Counted from the first letter of the stretch, positions 375 through 22,550 are shown. The stretch: DNA of 64,000 nucleotides from Victivallales bacterium (GCA_017417585.1 JAFPYX010000026.1:1-64000); one strand, 5' to 3'. The notes: a model not told the origin generated them from the sequence alone. Numbers and translations are program-made.

Positions 375-2168
375 ATGCCAATGCAGAAAGTCAACACCTC
401 CTACCTATCCAAGATGGTGGGGGAGTATCGCTCGAAGCTGACGACGGATACGGCGATTGCCGATATTGTCACCTTTGCCGAGGCCAACTGGGGGCTTGGC
501 ATGACCCTATTCCCCGTCCAGCGCTTCATCCTGAAATGCTTCTACGGCCTCCCGCTGGAGGATATCGATAAGACCATCGATTTGCCCGATTTGACCAACG
601 AGCGCATCATCGGGCATTTCACCGAACGGGAATTCTTCGACTATCTGGTGGCCAACCGCCGGGTGAACCGCCAGGACTACACGGCCGGGGAGGTGCAGAA
701 CGACCTGCTGCTATGCTGCGGACGCCGTGCCTCCAAAAGCAATATCATCGCCATTGTCTGCGCCTACGAGCTGCATCGGATGATCAAGTATGAGAACCCC
801 CAGGCGTACTACGGCTTCCCCAGCGGCTCCGAAATCGACATCACCACGGTGGCCGCCAGCGACGGCCAGGCCGCGACCGTGTTCAACATGATCAAGAACC
901 GCATCCTCGATTGCCCGTTCTTCAACGGACGGCTGGATGCCGATACCCAGACCTACCTGTCCCTCCGCACCGACGACGACATGAAGATGGACCGGGGCGG
1001 CTCGGTCCGGGTGTACTGCGCGGGGGCGGGTTCGGCCGCCCTGCGCGGCAAGAACAACCTGATTGTGGTCGCGGACGAGGCGGCCTTCTTCGATAACATG
1101 GGCAAGGCGAGCCTGCTCGAGGCGTGGAACGCCCTGACCCCATCGACGCGCACCTTCATCCCCGTCGGCAAGACCCGCGGCGAGGGCAAGCGGGTGATGC
1201 TTTCCAGCCCGCTTGCCAAAAGCGGGATGTTCTGGGACAAGTACTGCGAGGCCTTCGATTTGCCGGAGGGGACGCTGATGTTCCAGATGTACACCACCAT
1301 GATCAACCCCCGGCTCGACCCCGCCGACCTGAAGAAGGAGCTCCGGCGCGACCGCACCCATTTCATGTGCGAATACGGCGGGGAGTTCTCCGATACGGTC
1401 TCCGCCTGGGCGGATGCGGATGCCCTGGCCGGCAGCGTGGACAAGCGGCGCCGGCTGAACCTCCCCAAGGGCGACCCCGGGATTAACTACTACATGGGGG
1501 TCGATTTCGGGGGGAAGAACGACGGGGCCGCAATCGCCATCGTCCACCGCGAGGACGAGCTCATTGTTTTGGACTACGCCGATGTCTTCTTCGCCGCCGG
1601 CAGCGACGCCTGGGAGGGCATCGCCCCGTACTATGCCGAGGCAAACCGGCTTTTCGCGGAGGAGGAGATAATCCCGATGAACGGCTTCGCCGACGAAATC
1701 CAGCGGCTTTGCGACAAGTTCAACGTGGTCGAGGGATGGTTCGACATGTTCAACGGCTACGGGCTTCTGGAACTCCTGAAGGACCGGGGGTTGGACAAGT
1801 TCACCGCCAAGAACGTCACCGGGGGGTTCAACACCCAGGTGTTCCAGGCCGCCAAGAGCCTCCTCGGCACGGGCCTTCTGAAGCTCTTCGACCACCCCGT
1901 GCTGATTCCGGAGCTGGCGGGGCTGGAGGAGCGCCGGGAGGGGACCCGGCTGACGGTGGAGGCTCCCCAGCGCACCGGCTACCACGACGATATATCGGAT
2001 GCCTTCGTCCGCGCCGTATGGGCGGCCTACAACGCCCGCAAATCCGCCTTCAAGCGGGTGACAATCGGCATTGGCGGCCACGGGGGGACCGGCTCCTACA
2101 ACGCCTTCCGCCTCGACCGCTTCCGTCGGCACGGCGGCGACCAGCGGTTCCCCCTCCGTCCCATATAG
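375..2168 (+). CDS. Phage terminase large subunit (ATPase-nuclease)
   Basis: This is the DNA-packaging motor protein, which cuts concatemeric phage DNA and pumps it into the prohead. The 597 residues show a variant Walker A (CGRRASKS, about 115-122), a Walker B (LIVVADE, 229-235) and a coupling motif (VMLSSP, 274-279). The RNase H-like nuclease follows, with acidic residues at D377 (YMGVDFGG) and at D538, D539 and D542 (YHDDISDAF). The length is normal for the family. ATG 375 is followed by another ATG at 381, and either could be the start; the ribosome site is weak. The portal gene lies two genes downstream, the usual packaging order. Confidence 0.93.
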   Translation: MPMQKVNTSYLSKMVGEYRSKLTTDTAIADIVTFAEANWGLGMTLFPVQRFILKCFYGLPLEDIDKTIDLPDLTNERIIGHFTEREFFDYLVANRRVNRQDYTAGEVQNDLLLCCGRRASKSNIIAIVCAYELHRMIKYENPQAYYGFPSGSEIDITTVAASDGQAATVFNMIKNRILDCPFFNGRLDADTQTYLSLRTDDDMKMDRGGSVRVYCAGAGSAALRGKNNLIVVADEAAFFDNMGKASLLEAWNALTPSTRTFIPVGKTRGEGKRVMLSSPLAKSGMFWDKYCEAFDLPEGTLMFQMYTTMINPRLDPADLKKELRRDRTHFMCEYGGEFSDTVSAWADADALAGSVDKRRRLNLPKGDPGINYYMGVDFGGKNDGAAIAIVHREDELIVLDYADVFFAAGSDAWEGIAPYYAEANRLFAEEEIIPMNGFADEIQRLCDKFNVVEGWFDMFNGYGLLELLKDRGLDKFTAKNVTGGFNTQVFQAAKSLLGTGLLKLFDHPVLIPELAGLEERREGTRLTVEAPQRTGYHDDISDAFVRAVWAAYNARKSAFKRVTIGIGGHGGTGSYNAFRLDRFRRHGGDQRFPLRPI

Positions 2169-2561: not shown

Positions 2562-4592
2562 ATGCCAAGGAACACCAAAGGTAAAGGCGGGGCGAAAGCC
2601 GTGACCACCCGCCGACCCGGCCCCGCCAGCGGCGGGAGCACCGCCCGGACCGCCCCCGCCGACCCGGCGCACGCCGCCGCCGCCCGCAAGGCGGCCTTCG
2701 GCGCGTTCACGCCTGGCCTTGGCCGGGGGATGGGTTTTGGCGCGGGAATGTCCCTGGGGACAATCAACACGGCCGCCTACACCAATGCCGGGGGCGGACT
2801 GGGGACCGGGGCGGGGATGCTCAACGACGTCCCGCAATATTTCCAGATAATGAACGAGAACAACGGCGGGATGCTTTATTGGCCCGTCACGCTCAAGGAG
2901 AAATACTCGTGGTACCGGTATTTCGCCACCAAGGACCCGTTTGTCTCGCGGGCGGTGCAGTTCCACACCGACCTGCCGATGAGCAAGCTCATCCTCCGCA
3001 TGCCGAAGATGAAGAACGAGGACAAGCGGCAGAAAATCCTCAAGAAGTTCGAAGGGATGGTCAAGCGGCTCAAACTGTTCGAGCGGCTGCACTCCATCCT
3101 CTACGAGATGAACGTGATTGGCAACTGCTTTATCTACGCCGACTACGACGAGGAGCGCCGGGAATGGGGCCGGCTGGTGATTCTCCCCCCGGAGGAGATA
3201 CTAATCTCCCGCTATCCCATGAGCGACAACGCCCGGGTGCAGTACCGCCCGGAAATCCTCGCGGGGCTGGCGAGCAACTACCGCATCCCCGTGGATTCCG
3301 AGGAGGCGTACCAGGCGTTTGTCGCGGGGCTCCCCCTGACCGAGCGGGGGCTTTTCGCCGATGTATCCTACGAGGTGGCGTGCGCAATCACCCAGAACAA
3401 CGGGGTGCTTGATCTGGATACCGACCCGTTCACGGGCGAGGATGGCAATAAAATCGGCTCCTTCGTCTACCATTTTAGCCTGCAGCGCCACGAGTATTTC
3501 GATCTGGGCGTCAGCCCGCTGGAGTGCGTGCTGACCCCACTTCTGATGAAGGAGCACTACAAATACACCCAACTCTCCCTGGCCAGCCGGAACATGACCC
3601 CGCGCTCGAAGGTGACCGCCCCCGATACCAGCGAGGCGGAACTCGCCAGCCTGCGCGAGCAGATCGACATGTCGATGCTCAACCCGGACTACTCCATAGT
3701 CACCAATTTCGATTGGAACTGGGAGCTGATTGGCGCGGAGAACCGCCTGATCGATCTGGCCCGCGAATACGAGACCATCGAGAACCAACTCTTCGCAGGG
3801 CTTGGGGTGACCCGCGAAATCCTGACCGGCGAGGGGATGTATTCGGGGTCCAAGATTTCCGTGGAGCTGCTCAACACCCGCTACCTGTTCATGCGGGATA
3901 TGCTTACCCATTACGTGGAGGAGAGCCTGTTCCTGCCCATTGCCGAGGAGAACGGCTTCTACGAGATCGACGAATGGGGCAACAAGAACTACTTCTACCC
4001 GAAACTATCCTTCACCCGGCTGTCAATCCGCGACAATTCCGAGGTCTTCGATTCCCTCTTCCAACTCTACCAGAAGGGGTCGCTGCCAATCGACGTCATC
4101 CTGGAGCTCTTCAACCTGGATTCCGACGAAATCCACGAGAAGCTCAAGCAGGATATGTTCACGGTCAAGGATTCCACCTACAACGACATGGTGCGCTCCG
4201 TTTACGGCGAGGTCGCCGGCAAGGTGGTGGAGGAGACCAATCTGGCCGACCAGATCATCGCCTACCTGCGCGGCCCGGACGGGAAGCCCCTTGCCAAGAA
4301 GGCCCCGGAGGGCGAGGAGGGCGGCAATGCGGGCGGTCCCGACGGGGGAATGGGCGGTATGCCGTTCCCGCCCGCCGGCAACGGGGAAGCCCCGCCCGCG
4401 CCCGACAATGGCGGCGATACGCCCGCTGGGGATGCATCCTCTTCCGGGGATGCCGGCGGCGATGCCACGATGGACTATCTCGACCAGTTGATTTCGGATG
4501 CCCAGAAGGAGGAGGCGGCAGGGGATAAGACCGCCGCCCCGGAATCCCCATCTGCCCCGGAAGGCGGGGAGCTTGTGGGAGAGCTTCTGTAA
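2562..4592 (+). CDS. Phage portal protein
   Basis: Portal proteins form the ring at the capsid vertex through which DNA enters and to which the tail attaches. This 676-residue protein has the typical portal core: a region reading WYRYFATKDPFVSRAV, an IGNCFIYADYDEE strand pair, LPPEEILISRYP, and the long crown/stem helices around residues 380-560. Residues 1-80 are Gly/Ala-rich. The last 110 residues (from about 565) are a low-complexity Gly/Pro/Glu/Asp tail that ends in an acidic segment. The gene follows the terminase module and lies 15 bases before the next structural gene. Confidence 0.85.
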   Translation: MPRNTKGKGGAKAVTTRRPGPASGGSTARTAPADPAHAAAARKAAFGAFTPGLGRGMGFGAGMSLGTINTAAYTNAGGGLGTGAGMLNDVPQYFQIMNENNGGMLYWPVTLKEKYSWYRYFATKDPFVSRAVQFHTDLPMSKLILRMPKMKNEDKRQKILKKFEGMVKRLKLFERLHSILYEMNVIGNCFIYADYDEERREWGRLVILPPEEILISRYPMSDNARVQYRPEILAGLASNYRIPVDSEEAYQAFVAGLPLTERGLFADVSYEVACAITQNNGVLDLDTDPFTGEDGNKIGSFVYHFSLQRHEYFDLGVSPLECVLTPLLMKEHYKYTQLSLASRNMTPRSKVTAPDTSEAELASLREQIDMSMLNPDYSIVTNFDWNWELIGAENRLIDLAREYETIENQLFAGLGVTREILTGEGMYSGSKISVELLNTRYLFMRDMLTHYVEESLFLPIAEENGFYEIDEWGNKNYFYPKLSFTRLSIRDNSEVFDSLFQLYQKGSLPIDVILELFNLDSDEIHEKLKQDMFTVKDSTYNDMVRSVYGEVAGKVVEETNLADQIIAYLRGPDGKPLAKKAPEGEEGGNAGGPDGGMGGMPFPPAGNGEAPPAPDNGGDTPAGDASSSGDAGGDATMDYLDQLISDAQKEEAAGDKTAAPESPSAPEGGELVGELL

Positions 4593-8584: not shown

Positions 8585-9442
8585 ATGATTCCCGATATTG
8601 GCAAAACCGCCTGCGCGGTCATCGGCCCGGACGACTACACCTATCTGCTGTTCAACCACGCGATGAACAACCCCCTCGAACTATCCTACGAGAATAGCGA
8701 GGGGATACACCGCAAGATGGTGTTCGGGGATGACGAGGCGACCCATTCCTACCGCGCCCTCCACTATCTCCGCCTATCCCCCGCCGGGGGCGTCCCGGGC
8801 ATCCCCCGCCCCGTCCCCTATATAGAGGGGGCCATCGCCGCGGAAGAGGAGGAGACCCCCGAACCAGAACCCCCCGATCCCGAAAACCCGCCCGCAGAGG
8901 GCGGCGGGGAAGGCGGTTCCGGGGGCGGTAGTGGCGGCGGAGGGGAGACCGGGTCGGATTCGCCGCTTGCCCTTCCCCTCTACGAGGTCATCACCCCCCA
9001 GGCGGGCATCCTCCCCGGCCGGCCCGGCTTTGTGCTTTCCTTCTGGACAAACCTATCCGAGGCCGCCAGCGGCCTCTTGGGAATGGACGGCCGCTACCAC
9101 TACGATTCAACGAAGATTCTCCGTTTTGATGCAAACGCCCTCGGCGATGTGGATTTGGATTCCTATAGTTGGAAAATCCTCTGCACGGCGGAGGTCATCT
9201 GGGATAGAATGAAGGTGAATGGGGGAACGCTTGCCATAGCCGACACCAACATGATGCCTATCCCGGTGGTCACCCACATAGAGGTCAATCTGGCGCTAAA
9301 CGGCAATCTCGCCATTGATTTCGGGTCGGGGGAAGGCGGCGGGGGGATGCGCCGTCACAACCACGCCGACAATTCTCGCGGGGGGTTCGCCTACGCCGTG
9401 TGGGCGCCCGGCTGCACCCTGAATCCCGTCAACTGGTACTGA
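8585..9442 (+). CDS. Probable virion protein with Gly-rich linker
   Basis: A 285-residue protein beginning 3 bases after its neighbour ends. The N-terminal 90 residues and a beta-rich C-terminal 150 residues are joined by a linker at about 94-125 made of Glu/Pro then Gly/Ser (GEGGSGGGSGGGG). The last residues contain a His/Asn/Gly-rich end (RRHNHADNSRGGFAYAVW). Two domains on a flexible linker suit a tail or appendage protein, but no family is recognised. Confidence 0.6.
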   Translation: MIPDIGKTACAVIGPDDYTYLLFNHAMNNPLELSYENSEGIHRKMVFGDDEATHSYRALHYLRLSPAGGVPGIPRPVPYIEGAIAAEEEETPEPEPPDPENPPAEGGGEGGSGGGSGGGGETGSDSPLALPLYEVITPQAGILPGRPGFVLSFWTNLSEAASGLLGMDGRYHYDSTKILRFDANALGDVDLDSYSWKILCTAEVIWDRMKVNGGTLAIADTNMMPIPVVTHIEVNLALNGNLAIDFGSGEGGGGMRRHNHADNSRGGFAYAVWAPGCTLNPVNWY

Positions 9443-9443
9443 C

Positions 9444-10736
9444 ATGCGTAAAACGGCGGGCAATTACAGATACGATCCCACGCATACTCACAAGCCAAAG
9501 GACGGGATATGGGATGAGACCGACCGGGGGTGGTCGCGGCGGAAATCCCCGCCGCAAAAAGGGACGGAGGCGGTGTCCAATTCCGTCCGGCCGCTTGCGG
9601 TCGTTGCGCTCCCGCCGCCAAGCAAGCCGCTGCGAAGGCGACTTGCCGCATTCGCCCGGTCGAAATACCGTGGATTCTACAACCACGGCATGGCGAAATT
9701 TGAAGAGGCCTCGGCAGAGGTGGACGCCCTTATGGGCGACCAGCGGGCAATGAATCGCGATTTGAATCACCTTTTCCGCGCCTATGCTGACCATGAAATG
9801 CAGGAGGTTGTCCCGGAATTATCCACTCACATTGCCAGATTTTACGGAGTCGACAATCTTGATACCGATTTCCGAACCAAAGGAGTGAGGAACTTGCCCG
9901 CTTCCCCGCCGAAGTTGCTTTCCCGATTGGGAGACCTACTTTCCTATGAGCAGGCAGTAATTCGGGCGGCAGGATTGGTAAACCCCGACGAAACCGTTAC
10001 TCTGTTTCGGAATTGCGGTGCGAATCAACTTGCCGGTCCAACCAAAACGGGTCGGAAATATCAAGGAAGCAATGTCGAAAGCTGGACGGTTAATCCAAGC
10101 CTGGATTGGCCGGGGTTCAAGATAAAAGCCAACATTCCGATCAAGTATTGTATTGCCTCCTGCATCGGTCGGAAAGACCATCCGTTCAAACATCCCGACC
10201 AAAGTGAAATAACTGTATGCGGGACTTTTGTCGAAGAGATAACTCTTTTGGAAGAAGCCAACAGAAATGAAGCAATAAAGCAAGACGCGATTCACACATT
10301 GCGGCGGAATATGCTGCGGAGAATCTCCGATGGCGGCAAGCGGAAAGCCTCGCGGATTGCAAAAAGTACGCTAAAATTGGTGAAAAGCGCCTTGCTTTCG
10401 CTTGTCGCTAAATTGCTTTGCAATAACTTTTCGTCTGACGGCGTATATTATGGAGAGCGTTCCATATTAGAATGTAGCAATTGCGTTGCAAACGGGAGAC
10501 CAATGATGGCCAACGGAAAAGCAAAGGAAATCACGGCTAAAAAAGGCCGCATGCCAAGTCAAGGAGAAATTGATTTCCAACTCCAAATGAAGCGCTGGAC
10601 GGAATTTGTCCGGAAGCGCGGCTTCAGCGTGGCGGGGGGGATGACAAGAGCCGTACGCAACCGACTTTGGGAAGAGTTTGTTGTTTTGGAGCGCAAGCGA
10701 AATCCAAATGTCGAAATTCCAGAATGGCACGACTGA
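9444..10736 (+). CDS. Phage protein with KPK/RGW motif and possible ADP-ribosyltransferase-like domain
   Basis: A 430-residue protein starting 1 base after the previous stop. Residues 11-30 carry DPTHTHKPKDGIWDETDRGW, a motif also found in the GNAT-like protein at 12752-13456. Residues 183-270 have the layout of an ADP-ribosyltransferase fold: a strand with Arg189 (VTLFRNCG), a Ser-Trp-Thr at 213-215 (VESWTV), and a Glu-containing strand (FVEEITLL, 262-269). The last 160 residues are basic and helical. The catalytic match is partial: only one Glu falls in the ExE register. From about 9,700 the gene is clearly more AT-rich than its neighbours, which suggests a separate origin. It may be delivered with the virion. 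Confidence 0.6.
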   Translation: MRKTAGNYRYDPTHTHKPKDGIWDETDRGWSRRKSPPQKGTEAVSNSVRPLAVVALPPPSKPLRRRLAAFARSKYRGFYNHGMAKFEEASAEVDALMGDQRAMNRDLNHLFRAYADHEMQEVVPELSTHIARFYGVDNLDTDFRTKGVRNLPASPPKLLSRLGDLLSYEQAVIRAAGLVNPDETVTLFRNCGANQLAGPTKTGRKYQGSNVESWTVNPSLDWPGFKIKANIPIKYCIASCIGRKDHPFKHPDQSEITVCGTFVEEITLLEEANRNEAIKQDAIHTLRRNMLRRISDGGKRKASRIAKSTLKLVKSALLSLVAKLLCNNFSSDGVYYGERSILECSNCVANGRPMMANGKAKEITAKKGRMPSQGEIDFQLQMKRWTEFVRKRGFSVAGGMTRAVRNRLWEEFVVLERKRNPNVEIPEWHD

Positions 10737-10743
10737 TTGCGCA

Positions 10744-11247
10744 ATGCGGCTAATCCAGGTGCCAATCGATTCCCTCCGCCCCCCGGATTACCTGACCCGG
10801 CGGCACGATTCGGCGCAATTGGCGCGGTTCCTGGCCGCCTACCGCAAGAACGGCCAGTACCAGCCAATTGTGGCCGCCGGCGGCGAAATCCTCTGCGGGA
10901 CGCTTGTCTGGCAGGCGATGAAGGCGGCCGGGGAAACGCGGATATGGGTGAACGACCTGGGGGACATCCCCCCGGAGAAGCGCAAGGAAATCCGCTATCT
11001 GGACAACCAGATATTCGATATCGAGACGTGGGATGCCGAGGCGATGAAACGCCTCCTTATGGATACGGATGCCGCGGCGCTATCCGAAATCGGCTTCACC
11101 AAGGAGGAGGCCGAGCTGCTGGTGAACGACGAGGGGGCGGCGGTATCCAGAGCCGCCCGGGGGCGTTCCAAGAAGCTCAAGACGCTATGGAAATGCGATG
11201 CCTGCGGGTGGCAGGGGGAACTGCCGAAGACGGGCGCGCGGACATAG
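10744..11247 (+). CDS. ParB-like N-terminal domain protein with terminal CxxC
   Basis: A 167-residue protein. Residues 1-95 follow the ParB/sulfiredoxin pattern: VPIDSLRPPDYLTRR, SAQLARFLAAYRKNGQYQPIVAAGG, and a strand-helix pair ending in KRKEIRYLDNQ. The C-terminus has one CxxC (WKCDACGWQG) and may bind zinc only with a partner. ATG 10744 was chosen because an upstream start at 10678 would overlap the previous gene by 59 bases. In phages such proteins can be DNA-binding or nuclease-like regulators. No ParA gene is nearby, so plasmid-type partitioning is not indicated. Confidence 0.7.
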   Translation: MRLIQVPIDSLRPPDYLTRRHDSAQLARFLAAYRKNGQYQPIVAAGGEILCGTLVWQAMKAAGETRIWVNDLGDIPPEKRKEIRYLDNQIFDIETWDAEAMKRLLMDTDAAALSEIGFTKEEAELLVNDEGAAVSRAARGRSKKLKTLWKCDACGWQGELPKTGART

Positions 11248-11332
11248 AAAAGCCACCCAGCATTATTTTCCGCGGGATAAGTGAGAGAGTTTTTCCCCAA
11301 TACCCTCATAACATCCCAAAGGAGAAAGCAAA

Positions 11333-12118
11333 ATGTTCAATCGCAATCTGGTCGCCCGCGTCCTGGTGAAAATCGCCAAGAATCTCGTTGCATTTGAGAA
11401 CGACGAGGAAGAAGCCGCGAAGGCGGTGGAGCTCGGGCATAAAATCGACAGCCTGATGGGGCCGGCGAAGGCCGCCCTGAAGGAACGCCAGGATGAACTC
11501 GACAAACTTACCGCCAAGGCGAAGGAGGTCGAGAAGGAACTCAAGGATGCCTTCAAGGAGTGGGATGCCCAGACCGGCTATACCGCCTCCCGCAAGGCGC
11601 TGGAGCAGGAACTTGCCGAATTCGAGAAGGCCGGCGGCAACCTCGAGAAAATCGCCTCCACCTGCAAGGTGGCAAGCCGCAAATCCATCCAACCCTCCTA
11701 CAAGGAGTGGATGCTGACCATTGTCTCCACCCTCAACGATGCCGAACTCAAGAAATACTTCAGCGGCACCCTTGAGGCCTTCAAGAAGAACACCCTCGAG
11801 GTCAAGACCGGGATCAGCGTCCTGGACGTCTGCCGCAAGGAGTGGAGCCAGGAGGCGAAGGAACTTGCCGACGAGCGCGGGGTCGCGCTGCCCAAGGCCT
11901 CCCGCCGCCTGACCGCCAGCGGCCAGATTGTCACCGCCGGCGTGCTTGACTGGTTCAAGAAAATCGGCATGAGCGTGGCCGCCGTGATCAAGGACGTCTT
12001 CGGCCCGGTCATCCGCTGCATCAAGGGTTTGGCCGGCAAGGCGACCGCCAGCGCCGAGAAGGCGAAGGCCTTCAACGGCAAGATCGGCAAACTTGCCGCC
12101 AAGGCCGAAAGCCTCTAA
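11333..12118 (+). CDS. Coiled-coil phage protein with shared N-terminal leader
   Basis: A 261-residue protein with a strong AAAGGAGAAAG ribosome site. The first 20 residues (MFNRNLVARVLVKIAKNLVA) form an amphipathic helix that closely matches the start of the protein at 18618-18875 and resembles that at 12752-13456. A long Lys/Glu coiled coil follows (about 22-100). A C-terminal helical region contains a hydrophobic stretch (VLDWFKKIGMSVAAVIKDVFG, about 205-225). No family is recognised. The shared leader resembles, in type but not in sequence, the capsid-targeting peptides of T4 internal proteins. Confidence 0.75.
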   Translation: MFNRNLVARVLVKIAKNLVAFENDEEEAAKAVELGHKIDSLMGPAKAALKERQDELDKLTAKAKEVEKELKDAFKEWDAQTGYTASRKALEQELAEFEKAGGNLEKIASTCKVASRKSIQPSYKEWMLTIVSTLNDAELKKYFSGTLEAFKKNTLEVKTGISVLDVCRKEWSQEAKELADERGVALPKASRRLTASGQIVTAGVLDWFKKIGMSVAAVIKDVFGPVIRCIKGLAGKATASAEKAKAFNGKIGKLAAKAESL

Positions 12119-12124
12119 ACGGCA

Positions 12125-12532
12125 ATGGTCCCCTTCGCGGAACGGCTGGAGCATATAAAGCAGGAACTCGCCCCGCTTCTGCAGCGGCGGATGATCTTCC
12201 TGCTCAACCCCAAGGACACCGCCATCCTCGAGGCGGTGGTGGCCTGGACGGTCGTTCCCGCGAAGGATATCACGGAACTCCAGGTGGCCGAGGATGCCAC
12301 GCTGGAGGATTTGTGGGCGGCGGCGGAACCCGATATCCTTGCCTACGCCACCGCCCTGGGTTGCACGGTATCCCAGGCCCTCCCCCGCTTCAACCAACTC
12401 AAGAGCCTGAACATAATCTACCCGGACGGCAGCGTGGCCGACCAGGCGATTACCATAATCAACGTCTACATCAACACGCAGATAAACGGCCTCCGCGCCC
12501 AGAACGCCAAGAACGCCACGGCCGCCGAATAG
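12125..12532 (+). CDS. Phage protein of unknown function
   Basis: A 135-residue helical protein starting 6 bases after its neighbour and ending just before a hairpin terminator, so it is the last gene of this transcript. The N-terminal part reads FAERLEHIKQELAPLLQRR. The central part (LLNPKDTAILEAVVAW...LALGC-like TALGCTVSQALPRFNQL) has the feel of a small winged-helix or HTH fold, followed by a possible beta hairpin (NIIYPDGSVADQA). I cannot name a family. Confidence 0.65.
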   Translation: MVPFAERLEHIKQELAPLLQRRMIFLLNPKDTAILEAVVAWTVVPAKDITELQVAEDATLEDLWAAAEPDILAYATALGCTVSQALPRFNQLKSLNIIYPDGSVADQAITIINVYINTQINGLRAQNAKNATAAE

Positions 12533-12553
12533 CCGCCCTGCCCTGTTTTCCCG

Positions 12554-12576
12554 CCCGCCCCCGTGGCGGGTTTTCT
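12554..12576 (+). terminator. Rho-independent terminator
   Basis: A CCCGCC/GGCGGG stem (12554-12559 with 12565-12570) with a 5-base loop is followed by TTTTCT. It lies 22 bases after the stop of the 135-residue gene and probably ends the late/structural transcript. Confidence 0.75.
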
Positions 12577-12751
12577 GCTTTACTGGCATGGGGGGTGCCG
12601 AAAACCGATTCGGTGCGTATGAGAGGAGTGAAACTTGCCGTTGCCGTGGGCAAAATTAGCGTTTGCCGGGAAAAAGTGCGCGTGGAACGCAATAAAGCCG
12701 CGGGAATGCGCGTATAGTAAGTGGATTGAAGGCTTTTCAGTGTCAACTTCA
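12577..12751 (+). other. Intergenic region with promoter-like box and competing starts
   Basis: This stretch follows the terminator. It holds GAGAGGAG (12621-12628) correctly spaced for a TTG at 12635, which is in frame with the next gene. It also holds a 32-codon ATG frame (12619-12717) that I do not accept, and a TATAGT box at 12713-12718 that could be a -10 element. No good -35 is visible. Confidence 0.35.
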
Positions 12752-13456
12752 ATGCGATTTATAATAAGCCGCGCCCTGCTCCGGCTTGCCATTTGTCTTC
12801 TTGAGGCGGACAAGCACCGCTATGTCAGCGACCCCGAACACAAGAACAAGCCAAAGGGCGGCCGCTGGCGGAAAACGCCGCGGGGGTGGACAACCGCCCC
12901 GTTGCGGGAACGCCGTCCGGGGCAACCGCCCGCCAAGGCAGAGTTCAAGCCTCTCAAGGCAGTTCACATGGCGAAGGCAATCGCCAACGCCAAGGCAAGC
13001 GTAGGCGAACGCGACCGCTGGCGGGTGGATGCCCACGCAACCGCAGACTACCGCGATGCCAGGAATTATGCCACCAAAGGCGGCTCCTGCGTCGCAATCA
13101 AGCCCAATGGCGACATTGTTTCGGTTTGTCGCCACGAAAAATCAAACGAGCGCGGGGCGGATTTGCTTCGCAAGGCGGTCGCCAACGGCGGCGACCGGCT
13201 GGATGCCTTCGGACCGCGACTGTTTGGTTTCTACACCCGCAACGGCTTCGAACCAGTGGCGGTGACCAAGTTCGACAGGAGTCATGCTCCGGAAGGTTGG
13301 GACCCAAATAAGGATAGGCCAGAGGATATTGTCTTCTACAGGTACACTGGAAGGGAATACACCGGGCCTAGTTTTAACCAGTTCATTGCAAGCAGCAAGC
13401 CAATGCCGTACGAGGATGCACGGGCATACCGCGATTCCCAAATGAGGAGAAGATAA
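12752..13456 (+). CDS. GNAT-like phage protein with shared leader and KPK/RGW motif
   Basis: A 234-residue protein built of three parts. Residues 1-18 (MRFIISRALLRLAICLLE) match the leader pattern of the proteins at 11333 and 18618. Residues 27-46 carry the DPEHKNKPKGGRWRKTPRGW motif shared with the protein at 9444. Residues 108-198 look like a GNAT acyltransferase end: GDIVSVCRHEKSNERG, LLRKAVANGG, then LFGFYTRNGFEPV. I chose ATG 12752 because it places the leader at the very N-terminus. A TTG at 12635 with a strong ribosome site would add 39 residues and cannot be excluded. Substrate unknown. Confidence 0.7.
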   Translation: MRFIISRALLRLAICLLEADKHRYVSDPEHKNKPKGGRWRKTPRGWTTAPLRERRPGQPPAKAEFKPLKAVHMAKAIANAKASVGERDRWRVDAHATADYRDARNYATKGGSCVAIKPNGDIVSVCRHEKSNERGADLLRKAVANGGDRLDAFGPRLFGFYTRNGFEPVAVTKFDRSHAPEGWDPNKDRPEDIVFYRYTGREYTGPSFNQFIASSKPMPYEDARAYRDSQMRRR

Positions 13457-13867: not shown

Positions 13868-14353
13868 ATGAACACCCCCCGCACCATCCTTCTTTCCGTC
13901 CGCCCCAAATGGGCGGAGCTGATTCTCGCCGGCCGGAAGACCCTCGAGTACCGGCGCCGGCTGCCCGCCGGCTGCTACCAGCACATCCAATGGGCGTGGC
14001 TGTACGAGACCAAGCCGGTGGGGCGGATTGTCGCCCGGCTGACGGTCCGGATGTGGGCGGGCGATGTCTTTGACGAGCAAGCCGGCTGCCTATCCCGCGC
14101 CGAATACGACGCGTATTTCCGGGGGGCGGAATTCGCCTACGGAATTCGGATAGACCGGGTGGAGCGGCTGGCCACCCCGATTGCACTTGCGGACATCGGG
14201 CTTTCCCGCGCCCCGCAGAGTTGGCGGTATCTTCCGCAGCAGGCGGCCACCCGCATGATCATGCGGGCGGTTTTCACGTTCACGGAGGATAACGCATTGT
14301 GGAAACTATGCCCGCATTGCTACGGCGCAGTGCCGGTGGAGGTTGCGAAATGA
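13868..14353 (+). CDS. ASCH/PUA-like domain protein
   Basis: A 161-residue protein with a good AAGGAGAA ribosome site. The N-terminus (TILLSVRPKWAELILAGRKTLEYRRRLP) is the hallmark of ASCH-type domains, a PUA-like RNA/nucleotide-binding fold common in phages. It continues with a WLYETKPVGRIVARL strand pair. A C-terminal CPHC (residues 150-153) may form part of a metal site. The next gene overlaps it by 4 bases (ATGA). In phages ASCH proteins are thought to bind modified nucleotides or RNA; the partner here is unknown. Confidence 0.8.
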   Translation: MNTPRTILLSVRPKWAELILAGRKTLEYRRRLPAGCYQHIQWAWLYETKPVGRIVARLTVRMWAGDVFDEQAGCLSRAEYDAYFRGAEFAYGIRIDRVERLATPIALADIGLSRAPQSWRYLPQQAATRMIMRAVFTFTEDNALWKLCPHCYGAVPVEVAK

Positions 14354-18617: not shown

Positions 18618-18875
18618 ATGTTCGATAAAAGGAAAGTCGCCAAGGCGCTTGTGGGGATGGCAAGGAATATCATTGCCGGCCCGCAGCATTTTATCAACCG
18701 GAAATACGGCAATCCCCAGTCCTCCGCCGCCGCTATCCTGTCGGACATTGCCCTCTACGGCGACAGCTCCGGCTGGAGCGGTTCGGAACAGAGTTTTAAG
18801 GCGGTCGAGGCGATTCTAAAGAAATTCAACGTCGTGTATTACGATGATTTCAACGGCTCCTGGAAACTGAAATAA
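18618..18875 (+). CDS. Small phage protein with shared N-terminal leader
   Basis: An 85-residue protein with AAGGAGAACAAGG before the ATG. Residues 1-20 (MFDKRKVAKALVGMARNIIA) line up almost position by position with the start of the protein at 11333, although the rest differs. The remainder (SSAAAILSDIALYGDSSGWSGSEQSFKAVEAILKKFNVVYYDD) looks like a small helical domain. The leader is a candidate targeting or packaging signal; the body is unassigned. Confidence 0.7.
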   Translation: MFDKRKVAKALVGMARNIIAGPQHFINRKYGNPQSSAAAILSDIALYGDSSGWSGSEQSFKAVEAILKKFNVVYYDDFNGSWKLK

Positions 18876-18889
18876 TCCGCGCCGTAATT

Positions 18890-19204
18890 CTATTCTTCCT
18901 CGACCACGCCGAGGAAATCCATAGTCTCCGCGAACCAGCATTCCCGGCCATCGATATCGTACGGCCCCTTCTGGCAATCGACCGGGCATAGCACCACCTC
19001 GCCGGGGAGAACCTCGGCCTCCGCCCACTCGGATATCGCCAGTACCCGGCATTTTGCCTTCGGGGCCTTGGCGTTCTCCGGCAGCGCAATGCCGTCCTTT
19101 TCCTTATCGGCCTCAACGCGCTCCAGGAGCGCCCAGTCGCCCAGGGGGTTCAGCTCGCCGCCGGCGGCAAGCGTGAGGGTCAGTTTATCGCAGAATTCGC
19201 TCAT
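18890..19204 (-). CDS. Phage-encoded GroES-like co-chaperonin
   Basis: A 104-residue minus-strand protein with the Cpn10 layout: LGDWALLERVEADKEKDGIALPENAKA (first strand, mobile loop and GI-LP turn), KCRVLAISE, LPGEVVLCPVDCQKGPYDIDGRECWFAETMDFLGVVEE (C-terminal barrel). Normal GroES is about 95 residues. Phage co-chaperonins such as T4 gp31 cap host GroEL to help fold large capsid proteins; that role here is inferred. A GAGGAG site precedes the ATG. The upstream zinc-ribbon gene is 12 bases away in the same operon. No groEL gene is in the window. Confidence 0.8.
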   Translation of the reverse strand: MSEFCDKLTLTLAAGGELNPLGDWALLERVEADKEKDGIALPENAKAPKAKCRVLAISEWAEAEVLPGEVVLCPVDCQKGPYDIDGRECWFAETMDFLGVVEEE

Positions 19205-22495: not shown

Positions 22496-22550
22496 GTGGC
22501 GTGCCTACGCAGGGCGGCGCTTTTTTCCATGCGCCCTGCCTCTCCGCCAC
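22496..22550. other. Probable attachment site: tRNA-Ser-like 3' end within an inverted repeat
   Basis: CCCTGCCTCTCCGCCA (22534-22549) matches the 3' end expected of a tRNA-Ser gene: acceptor strand CCTCTCC, discriminator G, then CCA. The T-loop and the rest of a tRNA are missing upstream, so this is a fragment, as left by integration into a tRNA 3' end. The fragment forms the right arm of an inverted repeat (GTGGCG 22496-22501 with CGCCAC 22545-22550; GCAGGGC arms inside). I take it as the right prophage boundary. Confidence 0.6.

Follow-up and report, generated by a model that had tools for sequence, protein, structure and literature searches.

A short N-terminal peptide heads proteins with unrelated back ends in a Victivallales prophage

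The Alt protein of phage T4 is an injected ADP-ribosyltransferase (ART), and the choice of unrelated proteins for injection with phage DNA is understood in few phages. Phage polyvalent proteins are linked to the virion, are encoded close to late genes and bear domains such as ART, GNAT and Zeta (Iyer et al. 2017, PMC5512222); short peptide fronts are absent from the passages searched in that paper. MuF polymorphic toxins of temperate phages have a constant front and exchangeable back ends, which include ARTs (Jamet et al. 2017, PMC5576092). The internal proteins of T4 vary widely, and a conserved capsid targeting sequence is their one common element (PMC3012670).

Here, we explored two prophage genes, P1 and P2, whose products share an N-terminal motif of 20 residues, DPxHxxKPKxGxWxxTxRGW (the KPK/RGW front). 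The window is the whole stretch of 64,000 nucleotides that was analysed. Contig C96 begins with it, and its first position already falls within phage genes, of which the terminase comes first and the portal second. P1 and P2 lie downstream of both on the same strand, and P1 begins two bases after the upstream open reading frame (ORF), which ends at 9442. The features of the prophage part are as follows.

1 to 22549, plus strand: right-hand part of the prophage, which continues on contig C76 (terminase, portal, integrase, tRNA-Ser, attR repeat)
375 to 2168, plus strand: terminase large subunit (phrog_2, 6e-30)
2562 to 4592, plus strand: portal protein (phrog_16240, 5e-17)
9444 to 10736, plus strand: P1, KPK/RGW front and probable DraT-like ADP-ribosyltransferase, 430 aa
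10702 to 11247, plus strand: ParB-like partition/nuclease-family protein between P1 and P2, without KPK/RGW (phrog_498, 7e-18; phrog_8071, 1.6e-17)
11333 to 12118, plus strand: coiled-coil-like protein with an N-terminal helix (MFNRNLVARVLVKIAKNLVA), without KPK/RGW
12752 to 13456, plus strand: P2, N-terminal helix, KPK/RGW front and GNAT-like (phrog_2563) domain, 234 aa, ATG at 12752
18618 to 18875, plus strand: small protein with an N-terminal helix (MFDKRKVAKALVGMARNIIAG)
22534 to 22549, plus strand: attR, a 16-bp copy of the tRNA-Ser 3' end (CCCTGCCTCTCCGCCA), the prophage edge

On C76, replication genes (ClpS, DnaB-type helicase, SNF2 helicase and RecA) lie toward base 1 on the minus strand, and further in an integrase (PF00589, 8e-16) adjoins a tRNA-Ser gene (C76:28508-28595). 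The final 16 bases of this tRNA-Ser are repeated at window positions 22534-22549, in an orientation that fits C76 reversed and placed before C96. Thus, P1, P2 and the two further copies of the front described below would all be parts of a single prophage that spans 51 kb or more. We infer the join of C76 and C96 from the repeat, the gene content and the strands; no sequence overlap between the two contigs was found, and a gap lies between them.

Several other genes of the prophage were noted. An ASCH-domain protein (weak Pfam match; phrog_3136, 1.3e-24) lies just downstream of P2 at window positions 13868-14353, and a GroES-like co-chaperonin (PF00166, 2.8e-6) is found at 18890-19204 on the minus strand. 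The ClpS adaptor (1.4e-22) occupies C76:126-536 (L028, minus strand) and is followed by what is apparently the first part of a Clp ATPase N-domain, which runs to base 1 of C76, where the contig ends. An intein-like insert that includes a GIY-YIG-like ORF apparently splits RecA (C76:11837-14726, L028, minus strand).

The sequence-only reading had claimed that both proteins carry the 20-residue motif, and translation bears this out exactly: P1 has DPTHTHKPKDGIWDETDRGW at residues 11-30 and P2 has DPEHKNKPKGGRWRKTPRGW at residues 27-46. The fixed positions, 12 of the 20, are the same in P1 and P2. The two modules are located as follows.

9474 to 9533, plus strand: KPK/RGW module of P1 (residues 11-30)
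12830 to 12889, plus strand: KPK/RGW module of P2 (residues 27-46)

At the DNA level, the relaxed pattern KPxxGxWxxTxxGW gave exactly three matches in the whole 3.26-Mb genome, and its reversed control gave none. A third protein, P3 on C76, reads MFNHQLVARVLMNLAV...YRYDPEHKHKPQGGGWIKTEKGWSK and then continues into leucine-rich-repeat-variant (LRV) repeats (PF01816, 1.3e-23). When the N-terminal 59 residues of P3 were used as the query within the genome, they retrieved P2 (E = 2.8e-9), P1 (E = 5.3e-8) and a weak, degenerate fourth copy on C76, MLNHPHQSVPLRVAQALLLIAKWIRDPEHHRTELKRMGFHKTEQGWSD. E-values this low place the sharing of the front by P1 and P2 far beyond chance, and the alignments establish the front as homologous in P1, P2 and P3. 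P3 sits between ClpS and the replication genes and the fourth copy near the integrase, so that neither is among the late genes.

We then consider the distribution of the front. No relative of P1 or of the front was found in IMG/VR, GTDB or INPHARED, and a search of plasmids for the front was also negative. Among 198 genomes of the class and 388 of the phylum, matches outside the own genome were weak only (all E ≥ 0.0026), and the in-frame matches of a GTDB pattern scan look like chance among the matches listed. The exact front therefore appears so far to be private to this prophage. The sequence-only reading had missed the third and fourth copies, which lie on another contig of the same prophage; the exact motif was absent from the other phages searched. 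Two candidates were rejected as relatives because DPxH is missing from both: a front-like protein with PKPGGGGWTPTPMGW near its N-terminus in L025 (IMGVR_UViG_3300031565_003232), and a zinc-ribbon-like protein in L021 that resembles the front. Two further proteins of L025, one of them with a DraT-like ART, have the string GGAYTGKGKR[TS]GSPGHYKYDY in common; the protein with PKPGGGGWTPTPMGW is the third besides this pair.

A second shared piece, which the sequence-only reading also missed, may exist. An amphipathic-looking N-terminal helix, MFNxxLVARVLxxLAxxLVA, was seen in six prophage proteins, namely P2, P3, the fourth copy and the proteins at 11333, at 18618 and at about 4.2 kb on C76; P1 is without it. 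The best helix pairs score 50 and 45, the 95% shuffle limit is 41, and the highest of 100 shuffled sets reached 52. Judged against these shuffles, the sharing of the helix-like stretch by the six proteins is suggestive, not proven. The helix comes first, KPK/RGW second and the back end last; a protein may lack the helix or KPK/RGW.

The back end of P1 gave nothing useful in Pfam, NCBIfam or PHROGs. It was compared by hhalign with a profile of phage DraT-like ARTs, whose seeds were phage DraT-like domains, one of them from Bacillus phage SP-15. The region that aligned is given here.

9945 to 10226, plus strand: ART-like region of P1 (residues 168-261; LFR ... SWT ... P ... QxE), from hhalign against the phage DraT-like ART profile

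This match had E = 2.2e-4 and a score of 31.7, against 20.6 for the best of 60 shuffles, and LFR, SWT and QSE of P1 align co-linearly with the catalytic positions R, S-x-T and E/Q-x-E. With HMMER the same match is weak (9.4 bits). The link to DRAT comes from a polyvalent protein of L304, in which a domain with R, SWT and ExE matches Pfam DRAT (2.2e-9); P1 itself matched neither Pfam DRAT (PF07357) nor a phage ART profile of the ADPrib_exo_Tox type. The single-sequence AlphaFold model of P1 (pLDDT 41) was too poor for a fold search. Its sole confidently predicted part is a C-terminal helix pair (residues ~373-425, block pLDDT about 71-89), which lies outside the ART-like region. Because P1 fits the DraT-like profile, the earlier guess of an ADP-ribosyltransferase is probably right, and we regard P1 as probably a divergent DraT-like ART, an assignment with moderate support. 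The parallel with Alt did not hold at this level, as no ART of the Alt/VIP2 clade was detected in P1 with Pfam, PHROGs or the ADPrib_exo_Tox-type profile.

The back end of P2 is a different domain.

13013 to 13360, plus strand: GNAT-like domain of P2 (residues 88-203), phrog_2563, with viral relatives

P2 matches phrog_2563 (E = 1.5e-7), as do 28 of the 29 aligned members of its domain family. As a single query P2 found no relative in IMG/VR; an alignment query was needed, and gave 179 viral relatives among the IMG/VR candidates. The family motifs GDIVSV, GGxxLDAF and FYxxxGFxPV suit a GNAT. Pfam GNAT gave nothing above the cut-off for P2, and the single-sequence AlphaFold model (pLDDT 39.6) was too poor for a fold search. 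The best PDB match of the family profile is the GNAT 2qec at E = 0.22 only, and the domain is therefore named GNAT-like.

Portal proteins of L172 and L173 (PF06381, E about 1e-108) have this domain at their C-terminus. It also ends MuF/head-morphogenesis proteins (L162, L163 and L166) and occurs in annotated minor capsid proteins of Microbacterium phages (including Caron) and of Methanobrevibacter virus vir075. Other contexts are a NUDIX fusion (L167) and giant polyvalent ORFs (Limnohabitans phage DC33, L181 and L182). Because the domain is fused to portal, MuF/head-morphogenesis and minor capsid proteins, there is strong evidence that it works from inside virions in other phages. The back end stays GNAT-like, as first read, and in other phages it is associated with the virion. 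As a separate matter, phage DC33 (PQ492659.1, L040) is recorded under Inoviridae despite its 39 kb and a polyvalent gene of 9.4 kb, and this taxonomy looks wrong.

Taken together, these comparisons support one front joined to at least three back-end types, which are ART-like, GNAT-like and LRV repeats. The design of a constant front with exchangeable back ends, which had been suspected from P1 and P2, therefore extends to P3. The front stands before three different back ends rather than one domain type, and in these searches it was seen on no metabolic enzyme.

Our preferred explanation, to which we would give a little less than an even chance, is that the KPK/RGW peptide, as a module specific to this lineage, serves to load effectors into the virion; loading, injection and targets are all predicted. 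The prophage would put KPK/RGW, often after a short N-terminal helix, on the front of unrelated proteins, and the front would help to load them into the virion head in the manner of the T4 capsid targeting sequence. The loaded proteins would then enter the next host along with the DNA. Early in infection, P1 would ADP-ribosylate a host protein and P2 would acylate a host protein or a related substrate. Loading is favoured by the position of P1 and P2 among the late genes and by the use of the P2 domain as a portal and MuF appendage elsewhere. The fourth copy near the integrase and the lack of the helix in P1 speak against it, and since P3 is in the replication region, a pure virion-tag reading is weakened.

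P1 and P2 could instead be ordinary accessory (moron) genes that alter the lysogen itself and are not injected. They are prophage genes, and Pfam and PHROGs found no MuF, Alt or other known virion domain in either. However, both lie among the late genes and share their orientation, and other phages have the domain of P2 built into their portal and MuF proteins. We consider this explanation very improbable.

The copies outside the late genes suggest another function for the front, that of a small hairpin, shaped like DUF5710, which would bind nucleic acid or a phage protein in the infected cell, as in replication or host-takeover complexes. The SNF2 helicase of the prophage (C76:8690-10435, L028, minus strand) begins with DUF5710 (PF18974, 1.7e-6), whose core GGVWDQTAKGW has the same GxWxxTxxGW spacing as KPK/RGW. 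The module is basic, and P3 and the fourth copy are in the replication/integration region. However, DUF5710 is matched by none of P1, P2 and P3, and the likeness, of five positions only, may be convergent. A binding hairpin is distinctly unlikely in our judgement.

The loading explanation also draws on other phages. An unrelated front, GGPGSGNxGHxGRPGxxGGS, shows the same design as KPK/RGW in many viral contigs. In L170/L270 (IMGVR_UViG_3300021399_003413), terminase and portal are followed directly by four consecutive fronted ORFs, each with DGGPGSGNxGHxGRPGxRGGS near its start, and this placement favours loading. Their back ends are a Zeta toxin (3e-24), the GNAT-like domain of P2, an ART (PF03496, 5.7e-18) and one unknown. 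A scan for the GGPGSGN front gave at least 203 modules, at least 182 of them non-redundant, and contigs with the most copies had at least six. It precedes at least 10 domain types among the matches listed (150 segments), including ADPrib_exo_Tox (16), MuF (5), ART-PolyVal (4), Zeta (4) and GNAT (3); kinase, peptidase, topoisomerase IB, Ntox50, PARP, CdiA-CT and DRAT occur there once or twice.

Thirteen positions of this front are invariant among the matches listed, most of them fixed by the search pattern itself. At the invariant residues, copies within one contig have the same codon in 42% of cases vs 34% expected, and the L170 copies in 33% vs 34%. Because the residues are invariant and the codons near random, selection acts mainly on the peptide and not on the DNA. 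A role of GGPGSGN fronts as DNA recombination sites is likewise disfavoured, as synonymous codons are close to random.

This result bears on the idea that the KPK/RGW front reflects shared ancestry only, with 5' ends duplicated by recombination as expressed starts that have no function. It would accord with a module at gene starts, with copies in one prophage only, and with codons that are fairly alike between copies (12 of 19 informative comparisons). However, the N-terminal stretches have diverged to 42-53% identity over the aligned part, yet both Trp residues, KP and both glycines are kept, and the analogous GGPGSGN module combines near-random synonymous sites with invariant residues. Ancestry alone is quite improbable.

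Further fronts, GHPFYGNQW and DPxxPRDxxGRW, occur in other phage loci, some of them repeated inside single proteins. GGPGSGN modules are found up to five times per polypeptide at intervals of about 150-200 residues (L288). In L304 (IMGVR_UViG_3300032516_000159), an ORF of 3,054 aa has seven GHPFYGNQW-type and two GGPGSGN modules together with three DraT-like domains, and the modules seem to mark domain starts. In the open-access papers searched, neither the GGPGSGN string nor GNQW-type strings were found.

Since GGPGSGN and GNQW modules recur inside single polypeptides, a domain spacer suits them as well as a loading tag. Rather than a loading signal, the front may then be an inter-domain spacer, an unfolding hinge or a site where a phage protease cuts, and the Gly- and Pro-rich GGPGSGN and GHPFYGNQW modules agree with this. 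However, KPK/RGW is N-terminal in P1, P2 and P3, where one recognised domain or repeat region follows and there is little to space, and its two Trp residues and fixed pattern exceed the needs of a flexible linker. For KPK/RGW we regard a spacer, hinge or cut site as unlikely, and loading into the virion is still the reading that we prefer.

A wider proposal is that tailed phages use short lineage-specific fronts (KPK/RGW, GGPGSGNxGHxGRPGxxGGS, GHPFYGNQW and DPxxPRDxxGRW) as interchangeable delivery tags, and would gain a new virion-delivered effector by tagging a new domain, beside or independent of MuF and portal fusions. This generalisation is possible but, on balance, doubtful. Were the fronts address labels, searching for their patterns would yield candidate injected effectors from thousands of uncultured phages, and proteins without a known domain would be among them. 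Should they turn out to be spacers, the fronts would still show where domains begin in giant phage proteins and would aid annotation. It is this broader recurrence of short lineage-specific fronts on exchangeable effectors that merits experiments.

In comparison with known systems, P1 and P2 resemble polyvalent proteins in being near late genes, with terminase and portal upstream on the same strand, and the domain of P2 also occurs inside giant polyvalent ORFs. They differ in that each has one recognisable effector domain, not two or more, and that a short peptide front is shared rather than a multi-domain chain. As in MuF toxins, one front is combined with variable C-terminal domains (ART-like, GNAT-like and LRV), but here it is a peptide of 20 residues and not a MuF domain. 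Because MuF (PF04233) was looked for by Pfam in P1 and P2 at E up to 1 and was absent, these proteins are not MuF toxins. Like the T4 internal proteins, they have a short N-terminal element common to otherwise diverse proteins, with packaging predicted here; unlike T4 Alt, P1 is without a detectable Alt-type ART.

The GGPGSGN-fronted phage effectors, of which no published description was found in the open-access literature, are similar in that a short conserved peptide precedes ART, GNAT, Zeta and other domains and that fronted ORFs lie side by side after terminase and portal. Their front, however, is unrelated in sequence to KPK/RGW, is rich in Gly, Pro and His, is present in many viral contigs and also occurs between the domains of one polypeptide. 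The KPK/RGW-fronted proteins are thus a variation on the theme of polyvalent and MuF virion effectors, one that is real and not due to chance.
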